A stretch of 27,460 nt of DNA from positions 1 to 27,460 of the IMG/VR virus record IMGVR_UViG_3300030390_001071, one strand, 5' to 3'. The translations under genes were made by a program, and so were the position numbers. Shown here piece after piece: positions 16,689 through 26,769 of the stretch. Numbering within the stretch: the first letter of the stretch is position 1; the number at the start of each line of letters is the position of its first letter. Under the pieces are notes generated by a model. That model saw only the letters and a list, made by a program, of their open reading frames with translations, made no database searches and was not told where the DNA came from. This DNA comes from a virus.

Positions 16689-18188
16689 TTAATAATACTC
16701 TCTTGCTCTACGAGGATACCAATTCTCTGGGATCTCTTCGCCTTTTAAATCGATAAACCCGCCTTGCCTAAAACGCATCACTGCCATTGTCATACTATCA
16801 CAATAGTCATCATGATCGCCATTCGGAAAAGATGCAACTTCTTCAATAACATCTTCTGCAAATTTCTCTCCTTCAGGATACCATACTTTTCCAGATTCGA
16901 AAATAGGTGACACGATATGCATTCTCATAGTTTTATCGACACCCCCACCACCTTTTCGTCTGCCAGGACTAAACGTAGTAACGGGAAGATTTAATAATCT
17001 TAGTTCATCAGCAAGCGGTTGACCAGATGCCTTCGCCTCAATTAGCATCAAATCTGGTTCCCAATATTCATTTTCTTCTATAGCTATTTCTTTTAACTCT
17101 GGAAAATTCCAACGCCCCTTTTTCGCATCCAACATTATTAAATGTTGCTCACCATCTTCCTTTGGCTCAAACACTCCCCAAGTTGTAATAGCACTATAGT
17201 CAGCAGTCTCTTTTTTAGAATATGCCGTATCATAACTCTGCACTATATAATCTAATCTGGGTGTATCTTCTCTCTCCCACGCTTGCCACCAATCTCTCTT
17301 GATCATGGCAACGGCTTCCGAGGTTGGGTTCTGCTGCCATTGAGCGTTCCACTTGACCGGGGACAGTGAAGCCTTGACCTTTAATAGTTCATCAACTTCC
17401 CAGAACTCGGGCCATAGTGCTTTATCATTTGGAAGTATCGCTGGAAATTCTATAACCTCCCATTGATCGGACATACTGTCCATTGCCATATTCTGTACTA
17501 ATCGCCCCGTGAGGTCTTTCTTAGACCATCTTGTCTGCACAATAATGATGGTACCCCCCGGTTGCAATCTCTGCCTCGGTCCAGATGTGTACCACTCATA
17601 TGTATTATCATAAGCAACCGTGGACAATGCATCTTGTTCCGAGTGCGGATCATCAATGATCAACAAATCGGCACCACGACCTGTCATTGCAGCACCCACC
17701 CCTGCAGCGAAATATTCCCCACCAGCACTAGTCTCCCAACGACCTGCAGCTTGGCTATCCGGTTTCAAGTCCGTCTTGGGAAAGATCTCAGCATATATGG
17801 GATCGGCAATGAGATCACGAACCTTCCTACCGAATCTTACAGCAAGTTCCGTGTTCATGGTAGCCTGTATGATTTTTAATTTAGGATTACGACCCAAGAA
17901 CCACGAAGGCATTAAATATGAGGCTAATTCTGATTTCGAGTGTCTAGGAGGCATGTTGATGATCAAACGCTTCAAGTTACCCGATGCAATGTCCTCGAGC
18001 TTTTCGGAAATGACACGATGATGTCTACCCTCTATAAAACCGTCATATACATGTTTAGCATAGGATAGAAATTTAGTTTGAGCTTCTTCACGAGTTTCAA
18101 GTCGCTTGTGCTGTTGTTCCAGTAACAGAACTTCTTGTAACACTTCTTTAGGTAAGGCTTCATAATTCATACCCGAACAATAATACAT
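16689..18188 (-). CDS. terL: Terminase large subunit
   Basis: 499 residues. The ATPase half has a Walker A-like MPPRHSKSE (residues 79-87), Walker B LLIIDDP (175-181) and a coupling motif TRW (219-221). The C-terminal nuclease has metal-binding acids at SYDTAY (D320), LIEAKASG (E384) and GDHDDYCDSM (D459-D461). It packages DNA into the prohead through the portal and cuts it. It is the first gene of the leftward module. Neither ATG1 (18188) nor the in-frame ATG7 (18170) has a clear Shine-Dalgarno, so the start is uncertain by six residues. The small subunit is not adjacent; it lies at 26272-26769. Confidence 0.96.
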   Translation of the reverse strand: MYYCSGMNYEALPKEVLQEVLLLEQQHKRLETREEAQTKFLSYAKHVYDGFIEGRHHRVISEKLEDIASGNLKRLIINMPPRHSKSELASYLMPSWFLGRNPKLKIIQATMNTELAVRFGRKVRDLIADPIYAEIFPKTDLKPDSQAAGRWETSAGGEYFAAGVGAAMTGRGADLLIIDDPHSEQDALSTVAYDNTYEWYTSGPRQRLQPGGTIIIVQTRWSKKDLTGRLVQNMAMDSMSDQWEVIEFPAILPNDKALWPEFWEVDELLKVKASLSPVKWNAQWQQNPTSEAVAMIKRDWWQAWEREDTPRLDYIVQSYDTAYSKKETADYSAITTWGVFEPKEDGEQHLIMLDAKKGRWNFPELKEIAIEENEYWEPDLMLIEAKASGQPLADELRLLNLPVTTFSPGRRKGGGGVDKTMRMHIVSPIFESGKVWYPEGEKFAEDVIEEVASFPNGDHDDYCDSMTMAVMRFRQGGFIDLKGEEIPENWYPRRAREYY

Positions 18189-24393: not shown

Positions 24394-24542
24394 TTAACTT
24401 TTGTGAAGAATGGATATGTGATGGTTGTGGTAATATTTTTGATAAAACAGAATTAGTGGATTCAATACAACTACCATATTATGCATGTCAAGATTGTGAA
24501 GCAGATTTAAAAAAAGATTTGGAGGATTGTGTAAATGATTAA
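24390..24542 (+). CDS. 50-residue zinc-ribbon protein, paralogue of 22906-23160
   Basis: ATG 24390 after GGAGGG. MINFCEEWICDGCGNIFDKT then YYACQDCEADLKKDLED: CxxC (C10, C13) and CxxC (C33, C36), with an extra Cys at 5. It lacks the C-terminal extension of the 22906 paralogue. Its end contains the GGAGG site of the methyltransferase gene and overlaps it by eight bases, so it is directly coupled to the methyltransferase. Confidence 0.7.
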   Translation: MINFCEEWICDGCGNIFDKTELVDSIQLPYYACQDCEADLKKDLEDCVND

Positions 24543-25665
24543 AGAAGTTTCTTTATGTAGTGGGATCGGAGGTTTCTCTCTCGGTTTCGAATGGGCAAAA
24601 TTCGCAGAGCCTATAATGTTCTGCGACTTTGATGAATGGTGTAGAAAAGTTTTAAAAAAGAATTGGAAAGATGTTCCAACTTATAACGATGTTAAGGAGA
24701 TCGCAAATGACCCAAGAAGATTTATTTCAAGCAAAATCAACAAAGGAGAAAAGTGGGTACTCACAAGTGGATACCCATGCCAACCCTTCTCGGTCTCGGG
24801 AAATCGCAGAGGAGAAGAAGACCCTCGGCACATCTTTCCGTACATCCATAGAATTGTTGAACAAACTAGACCCACTTATTGTGTTTTCGAAAACGTTTAT
24901 GGGCATGTCTCAATGGGACTTGACGAGGTACTCTTTGAAATGGAAAGGATCAACTACCATACGAGGCAATTTGTTGTTTCGGCTTCAAGTGTCGGAGCGA
25001 GACACAAAAGAGACAGACTCTGGATCATCTGTAAAAATGTGGGCGACACCGAATACAATGGATGCTCTACCTCCGAGATCGGAAGAGGGGACGAAGAAGT
25101 TGCAAGAGGGTCACAGAAAAGGTCGGAAGAGACCGAGCAATCTAAGGGAGCAAGTGGACAAGAAGACAATGGCTCTTTACGAAACGAATTATCCAACTCC
25201 AACAACGAAGGGATTCGGTCATGCCTCGGAGGGAATGACATTGATCTTCAGAAAGAAAGTGGAGAGAGGAGAGATGACGGAACAAGAGGCTCAAGCAATG
25301 ATGAACGGAGTAACCTTGAGACCACCTCGGATGAAAGAGTGGAAATATCCGACACCGAATGCAGGTTTAGTGAAACACAGTTACAACGGCAATCACGAAT
25401 ACTACAAGAAGAGATTGAGGGACGGCAGACAAATAGACTTGGCTCACAAGATTTTTCAAGAGGAGGGAGACGGCAGACTCAATGCGAATTGGACGGAGTG
25501 GCTAATGGGTTATCCTATTGGATGGACGAACCTCGAGGAGTCCCAAGAGTTACAGTCGAACAAAAAAACAGACCTCAAAGATTGAGGATGTTGGGGAATG
25601 CAATAGTTCCCCAGATAGCAATGCAAATAGGTTTAGCTTTAAAGGAGGATATGAAAAATGGATAA
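24535..25665 (+). CDS. dcm: DNA (cytosine-5) methyltransferase
   Basis: 376 residues, complete. Motif I LCSGIGGFSLGFEWA (7-21) binds S-adenosylmethionine; PCQPFS (81-86) carries the catalytic Cys82; ENV (119-121) and GARHKRDRLW (154-163) are motifs VI and VIII; RLRMLGNAIVPQIA near 349-362 gives motifs IX/X. Residues about 170-320 are Ser/Glu/Arg/Asn-rich and poor in hydrophobics, unlike a normal target-recognition domain. Residues about 58-350 overlap the +1-frame gene 24707-25585. A sample line here (25081-25140) has 32 of 60 G+C against 16 of 60 at 24301-24360. No restriction enzyme gene is seen, so it probably protects phage DNA from host restriction. Confidence 0.93.
   Translation: MIKEVSLCSGIGGFSLGFEWAKFAEPIMFCDFDEWCRKVLKKNWKDVPTYNDVKEIANDPRRFISSKINKGEKWVLTSGYPCQPFSVSGNRRGEEDPRHIFPYIHRIVEQTRPTYCVFENVYGHVSMGLDEVLFEMERINYHTRQFVVSASSVGARHKRDRLWIICKNVGDTEYNGCSTSEIGRGDEEVARGSQKRSEETEQSKGASGQEDNGSLRNELSNSNNEGIRSCLGGNDIDLQKESGERRDDGTRGSSNDERSNLETTSDERVEISDTECRFSETQLQRQSRILQEEIEGRQTNRLGSQDFSRGGRRQTQCELDGVANGLSYWMDEPRGVPRVTVEQKNRPQRLRMLGNAIVPQIAMQIGLALKEDMKNG
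24694..24699 (+). promoter_or_regulatory. Internal ribosome binding site for the overprinted gene
   Basis: AAGGAG lies 7 bases before the ATG at 24707, inside the methyltransferase gene. It selects 24707 rather than the ATG at 24671 as the start of the overlapping gene. Confidence 0.75.
24707..25585 (+). CDS. Overprinted gene in +1 frame of the methyltransferase
   Basis: 292 codons wholly inside dcm. The start MTQEDLFQAKSTKEKSGYSQ follows AAGGAG. Residues 24-28 (HANPS) are read from the bases that encode PCQPFS. There are repeated aromatic-x-TP motifs: MWATPNTMDALPPRS (111-125), NYPTPTTKGFGH (161-172) and KYPTPNAG (213-220). The C-terminal GRLNANWTEWLMGYPIGWTN (256-275) is read from bases that encode LDGVANGLSYWMDE of the methyltransferase. 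From memory, similar proteins occur in other phages, often named methyltransferase-related. The function is unknown; a partner or specificity factor is inference. Confidence 0.75.
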   Translation: MTQEDLFQAKSTKEKSGYSQVDTHANPSRSREIAEEKKTLGTSFRTSIELLNKLDPLIVFSKTFMGMSQWDLTRYSLKWKGSTTIRGNLLFRLQVSERDTKETDSGSSVKMWATPNTMDALPPRSEEGTKKLQEGHRKGRKRPSNLREQVDKKTMALYETNYPTPTTKGFGHASEGMTLIFRKKVERGEMTEQEAQAMMNGVTLRPPRMKEWKYPTPNAGLVKHSYNGNHEYYKKRLRDGRQIDLAHKIFQEEGDGRLNANWTEWLMGYPIGWTNLEESQELQSNKKTDLKD

Positions 25666-26271: not shown

Positions 26272-26769
26272 TTATGTTTGGTCGGAGAGTTTTGTCCTCC
26301 CCTTATCCTCTCCGACCACCTTAAAATCACCTTCAATAAAAGCAGATGGATGTTGTTTTCTTATTTCAGAGAGTCTGGCTACTATTTCTTCACGAGATAA
26401 TTGATCTAATTGATGGGTTGTTTCTCTTCGATCTATAGTTAAACCTCCGAGTGCAGAGCGTATCTTCTCGGCATTAATCGCAGAGCTATACTGACCAGAC
26501 TCCTCTGCTCCTATACTAAGCTTAGATAATCTTCTAAGTTGTCCTATAAGAGTGACACCATATTTTCTCTCTCTAATCTCTCGGAGTTCTTTAAGATGTT
26601 CAGTTACCAAAGGGAAGTCACGACCATTCAACAAAAGACTTGCAGTCTTATATGCTTGTCCTTCGGAATAACCTGCTCTTCGGCAACACTCGGCATTACT
26701 ATAGATGCCTTCACAAACAAGTTTGCAGAATTCTTTTTGTCTATTAGTAAGGAATTTTTCTTTAGCCAT
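26272..26769 (-). CDS. terS: Terminase small subunit
   Basis: 165 residues. LTNRQKEFCKLVCEGIYSNA, CCRRAGYSEGQAYKTASLLL and NGRDFPLVTEHLKELREIRE form the helix-turn-helix type DNA-binding part; GVTLIGQLRRLSKLSIGAEE, AINAEKIRSALGGLTIDRRE and LDQLSREEIVARLSEIRKQH form the oligomerisation part. It recognises the packaging site and regulates TerL. It is separated from terL by about 8 kb of opposite-strand genes. A promoter at 26776-26804 leaves almost no 5' leader and no Shine-Dalgarno is present. Confidence 0.92.
   Translation of the reverse strand: MAKEKFLTNRQKEFCKLVCEGIYSNAECCRRAGYSEGQAYKTASLLLNGRDFPLVTEHLKELREIRERKYGVTLIGQLRRLSKLSIGAEESGQYSSAINAEKIRSALGGLTIDRRETTHQLDQLSREEIVARLSEIRKQHPSAFIEGDFKVVGEDKGRTKLSDQT
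26280..26317. terminator. Hairpin between convergent genes (possible terminator)
   Basis: Ten-base perfect arms GGTCGGAGAG (26280-26289) and CTCTCCGACC (26308-26317) with an 18-base loop, inside the last codons of terS. No T tract follows on either strand, so terminator function is uncertain. Confidence 0.4.

Follow-up and report, generated by a model that had tools for sequence, protein, structure and literature searches.

Overlapping reading frames in a phage genome probably encode two parts of one C5-cytosine methyltransferase, with recognition modules in the +1 frame

Results

We analyzed a 27,460-nucleotide stretch of viral DNA (the window; IMG/VR record IMGVR_UViG_3300030390_001071), which also carries terminase, portal and head genes. 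A terminase small-subunit-like gene (PHROG_51; 26272-26769, - strand) is distant from the large terminase (16689-18188). Near the 3' end of the window, two genes that we call alpha and beta overlap on the same strand, with the following features:

24521..24525, + strand: GGAGG, probable ribosome-binding site of alpha, 9 bases 5' of the ATG at 24535 (sequence reading)
24535..25665, + strand: alpha, C5-cytosine methyltransferase with motifs I-VIII and X, without motif IX; 376 aa
24694..24699, + strand: AAGGAG, internal ribosome-binding site of beta (sequence reading); AAGGAG and ATG are retained by many relatives
24707..25585, + strand: beta, +1-frame protein with recognition modules and motif IX; 292 aa (PHROG_1008, selection, conservation)
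24707..25036, + strand: N-terminal part of beta, over alpha motifs IV-VIII, constrained in both frames (synonymous codon identity)
24775..24792, + strand: alpha motif IV, PCQPFS, with catalytic Cys82; invariant in alignments
24889..24897, + strand: alpha motif VI, ENV; invariant
25036..25518, + strand: hydrophilic spacer separating motifs VIII and X of alpha; follows the beta codons (substitution positions, hydropathy)
25040..25189, + strand: beta module 1, WATPNTMD...; 59 family members, found in 37 contexts
25190..25345, + strand: beta module 2, YPTPTTKGFGH...; 8 members sharing at least 60% identity
25346..25477, + strand: beta module 3, YPTPNAGL...
25478..25528, + strand: beta motif IX, LNANWTEWLMGYPIGWT (invariant residues; alignment to motif IX of monomers)
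25594..25611, + strand: alpha motif X, GNAIVP (sequence reading)

A first-pass annotation, made from the sequence alone, had described a complete C5-methyltransferase frame with PCQPFS, ENV and GNAIVP, and motifs together with Pfam, NCBIfam and PHROGs profiles bore this out at 24535-25665. Alpha scored 127.6 bits against PF00145 (cut-off 22) and 103.2 bits against TIGR00675 (cut-off 100.65), and it matched PHROG_363 with an E-value of 3e-53. The motifs expected of PF00145, namely I, IV (PCQ), VI (ENV), VIII and X, are all there and are nearly or fully invariant in relatives. The alpha profile aligned with M.HhaI over motifs I-VIII only. Motif IX is missing from alpha and found in beta, so that a complete C5 enzyme exists only as alpha plus beta.

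Reading the sequence gave the same 292-codon +1 frame from 24707 to 25585 behind AAGGAG that had been described before. The AAGGAG ends seven bases 5' of the ATG at 24707, and a second ATG in the beta frame lies further upstream, at 24671. The three aromatic-x-TP repeats and Trp-rich C-terminus that had been noted in beta correspond to three [WY]xTP motifs and LNANWTEWLMGYPIGWT. Beta matched PHROG_1008, labeled 'DNA methyltransferase' (E 1.6e-21), and in profile searches of Pfam and NCBIfam no family exceeded its cut-off.

An open +1 frame could arise by chance from skewed base composition, with alpha alone being a real gene, and the first-pass annotation had itself cautioned that low T content lengthens open frames. 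We therefore turned to codon permutations. In 5,000 synonymous shuffles of the alpha codons, no +1 ORF reached the observed 309 codons (null mean 98, maximum 285), and the overlap was never without +1 stops (mean 5.3). Every shuffle of the beta codons put stops into the alpha frame (mean 14.9). With 28 stops, the third frame is closed. Because the permutations beat the composition null in both directions, low T content cannot explain the open +1 frame. The selection tests and the conservation across phyla described below also contradict a chance ORF, and we consider that explanation to be practically negligible.

A tblastn search with beta identified 54 phage records, mainly Paenibacillus larvae phages, in which several annotators give a pair of methyltransferase genes that overlap, or an 'internal gene'. 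Additional loci came from IMG/VR (160) and from GTDB species genomes (80), with some repeats. The best beta ORF overlapped the alpha ORF at +1 in 247 of 248 loci, and beta without alpha was found in none of the 248. A strict motif test was passed by 216 of the 248, and about seven more passed on inspection (L105, L162, L213-217); the remaining failures were mostly cuts at contig ends or a motif missed by the regular expression. Alpha has a stop upstream of motif X in L170 and L195. The distance from motif IX in beta to motif X in alpha had a median of 50 nt (216 loci). Since most loci were found via beta, the integrity of alpha is no by-product of that search. The strict set was selected for intact alpha, so the count of zero alpha-frame stops in its 101 non-redundant loci is partly by construction; the alpha-frame permutation test on the window itself is free of this effect. 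The alpha/beta arrangement is kept in hundreds of phages and bacteria. An old, conserved overprinting had been proposed from phage proteins with HANxS and EWLMGxPIGWT, and both frames indeed persist across phages and bacterial phyla. Five copies of the locus lie on one Roseovarius sp. chromosome (L213-L217; MAG OX638333.1).

The first-pass annotation had proposed a check for purifying selection, and substitution positions, rates and synonymous codon identity showed constraint on both frames. For 25 close relatives we counted the variable sites by alpha codon position (1/2/3), which gave 6/3/31 in the part 5' of the overlap and 1/1/13 in the part 3' of it. In the recognition region, between motifs VIII and IX, the same relatives gave 68/12/11, and alpha position 1 is the wobble position of beta. 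Per-opportunity rates in the alpha-only 5' part were 0.41 for synonymous and 0.02 for nonsynonymous changes. In the N-terminal part of the overlap, changes that are alpha-synonymous and beta-nonsynonymous occurred at 0.16, and changes that are alpha-nonsynonymous and beta-synonymous at 0.026, which argues for constraint on both frames. In the recognition region these rates were reversed (0.04 and 0.27, respectively). Identical alpha residues shared codons 1.53 times as often as expected from codon usage in motifs IV-VIII, compared with 1.03 and 1.08 outside the overlap, in a test on 72 diverse sequences with saturated distances. We conclude that both frames are under purifying selection, and that from motif VIII to motif IX the conserved frame is that of beta, with the alpha frame apparently a passenger kept stop-free.

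The central region of alpha had earlier been called hydrophobic-poor. It is hydrophilic, and we refine the description to that of a spacer dictated by beta, because its hydropathy matched the prediction from the beta codons plus the absence of stops. Such a spacer resembles a passenger that needs only to stay open for translation to reach motif X. Selection on the spacer for hydrophilicity was considered and rejected, as the beta codons and the absence of stops suffice.

Beta ends in the consensus LN..W.EWLMGYP.GW, in which L and LMG are invariant, and N nearly so, in our alignments. Profile comparison (hhalign) of beta with the region of single-frame monomers that spans the modules and motif IX gave a probability of 97-98%. 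These monomers occur in mycobacteriophages and have the same modules, motif IX and motif X; relatives with 1-5 LPTP modules exist there alongside split forms, with everything in one frame in Fancypants and a split arrangement in Tucker. Taking the homology together with the motif division, beta is probably the half of this enzyme that recognizes the target. The earlier suggestion of a partner or specificity factor thus gains support for the specificity role from this homology. It needs revision for the partner, as beta would be the missing piece of this enzyme and not an unrelated protein.

Alternatively, beta could be an unrelated accessory protein, for example an inhibitor, a nuclease or a regulator, whose gene is overprinted on that of the enzyme. 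Its lack of a Pfam domain above cut-off would fit, and a published phage methylase gene does contain a homing HNH endonuclease out of frame (PMC11855218). However, beta shares homology with monomers over their recognition region and motif IX, alpha is without motif IX, no beta lacking alpha was present among the 248 loci, and beta had no significant HNH match. We find an unrelated accessory protein highly improbable. An HNH-type insertion in beta was rejected as a candidate, the only match being a sub-threshold one to GH-E, with 12.5 bits against a threshold of 25.

Modeled alone in AlphaFold, beta gave a weak model (pLDDT 64, pTM 0.30) that is uninformative on fold novelty. Foldseek with this model returned nothing in the PDB with an E-value below 0.001, and the beta profile had no match among PDB sequences. 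In the model of monomer L262, the catalytic part and the IX-X region were confident and the modules had pLDDT below 50. This model had a VIA match to HhaI (Z 23.9, 3.2 A, 234 aligned), which says little about the modules because of their low confidence.

Several relatives divide the enzyme differently, and these natural variants point to the same identity for beta. In L226, LNPDWVEWLMGFPVGW lies in the alpha frame just 5' of motif X and the modules remain in beta, and in L208 and L209 alpha ends after motif VIII, with modules, IX and X all in the frame of beta. L275-L277 are like L226, with IX and X in the alpha frame and LPTP modules at +1 (checked for L275). The mycobacteriophage loci L279 (split) and L282 (monomer) are near-identical in DNA, with a one-base length difference at a junction just past motif VIII and some module differences downstream of the junction. 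The one-base difference falls at about base 2097 of each locus, in a G-rich stretch, and this junction is possibly a phase-variable site. The mycobacteriophage monomers L282, L284, L264 and L258 retain a +1 ORF with the N-terminal part of beta and at least one module, so that both frames carry modules.

We examined the modules in 143 non-redundant betas, which have 1-7 in tandem of about 41 aa each, mostly starting with W/Y/F-P-T-P or W-A-T-P. They cluster into 204 groups at 60% identity. The commonest group is that of module 1 of the window (59 copies in 37 contexts), relatives of module 2 stand at positions 2 or 3 of other arrays, and other groups shift between positions 1 and 6. The PTP(T/N), PTPTA core resembles the TL consensus given in PMC2413257, and we treat this resemblance as a lead. 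Multispecific phage methyltransferases have tandem recognition domains, and exchange of whole units would fit such enzymes (PMC8936443). The tandem units between motifs VIII and IX, exchanged among contexts, agree with this type in architecture only; by analogy, each module may read one target sequence. On balance we lean slightly toward a widespread class of multispecific methyltransferases in which an exchangeable module array sits in the alternate frame of the catalytic gene, shuffling that keeps both frames open evolves specificity, and single-base indels interconvert one- and two-protein forms.

An SD-like sequence and a start codon in the frame of beta just 5' of the alpha PCQ were present in 71 of 101 loci, compared with 31 for the third frame. 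The commonest spacings were 50 and 47 nt, and the AAGGAG plus ATG pattern was recurrent; 30 of the 101 loci had no obvious SD and start for beta in the scanned stretch. These data bear on programmed frameshifting, which would join the +1 frame to alpha in one polypeptide made from both frames. Collinearity with the monomer is consistent with it: motifs I-VIII (alpha), modules and IX (beta) and X (alpha) follow in order, with about 50 nt between IX and X. Two opposite shifts would be required, however, and in the 71 loci an SD and start codon specific to beta are present. Neither the selected N-terminal part of beta over motifs IV-VIII nor the open alpha spacer would be needed for a shift. We therefore regard frameshifting as very unlikely.

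Discussion

Taken together, these results lead us to propose, with a probability of about 0.9, that the region encodes in two frames what would be a heterodimeric phage C5-cytosine methyltransferase. One mRNA would be read from two starts. The start at 24535 would yield alpha, with the cofactor-binding and catalytic domain (motifs I-VIII), the passenger spacer and motif X, and the internal start at 24707 would yield beta in the +1 frame, with the conserved N-terminal part, three tandem recognition modules and motif IX. Alpha and beta would then assemble into one enzyme that takes its small DNA-reading domain and motif IX from beta. As a probable origin, indels may have moved the recognition region of a monomer out of the catalytic frame, with internal initiation maintaining its translation. 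No restriction endonuclease was recognized among the window proteins scanned. Given this and the virus record, the enzyme is probably an orphan methyltransferase, and its marks would protect phage DNA from restriction by the host.

Long overlaps between genes of one strand are commonly held to be rare, recent and hard to prove. The alpha/beta overlap is old and occurs in many phages and across bacterial phyla. Because intact one-frame relatives exist, the origin of the overprinted gene can be traced stepwise. In the literature searched, we found no report of such overprinting in phages. Annotation is affected as well, for both E. coli prophages and Salmonella phage epsilon15 have this arrangement. 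In a prophage of E. coli ECCTRSRTH03 (L286; NZ_CP041110.1, 747-1958 and 859-1887), alpha (404 aa) and beta (343 aa, +1) are both open, and RefSeq shows two incomplete methyltransferase pseudogene pieces instead. In Salmonella phage epsilon15 (L251, 1352-2395), beta lies at +1 inside an annotated methyltransferase and is itself absent from the annotation; it contains QLNPAHSRWLMGLP and four modules of the GWxTP type. A split methyltransferase of natural origin, in which modules can be swapped, would also offer a test system for phage evasion of restriction.

The closest known enzyme is M.EcoHK31I, whose two ORFs overlap in different frames. It is a two-polypeptide C5 methyltransferase for YGGCCR with motifs I-VIII and X in the large subunit and IX in the small subunit, and its predicted recognition domain has been reported to belong to the large subunit as well, leaving IX alone in the small one (PMC3404938). 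The window is alike in having I-VIII and X in alpha and IX in beta, and differs in having both the recognition modules and IX in beta, the equivalent region of alpha being a passenger spacer. A recognition domain in alpha is not what we found, as the region is selected in the frame of beta and beta matches the monomer modules. The recognition-domain assignment of M.EcoHK31I itself may deserve re-examination. M.AquI is similar in having motifs I-VIII in the large subunit and the distal half of the recognition part with IX in the second polypeptide. Its second subunit also has motif X, whereas X of the window is in alpha; among the relatives, only L208, L209 and Tucker (L253) have this AquI-like division with X in the small subunit.

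The multispecific enzymes of Bacillus phages SPR, SPbeta and H2 are single polypeptides read in one frame, whereas the window encodes its array at +1, as part of another subunit. The likeness is that they too are phage C5 enzymes with tandem recognition domains, for several targets (PMC8936443). In ShiLan, a second protein also lies out of frame within a phage methylase gene, but it is an inserted homing HNH endonuclease in the third frame (PMC11855218). The second frame in the window instead encodes the recognition part of the enzyme itself and runs from motif IV to motif IX. In contrast to M.EcoHK31I, a probably multispecific, exchangeable module array stands in the alternate frame.
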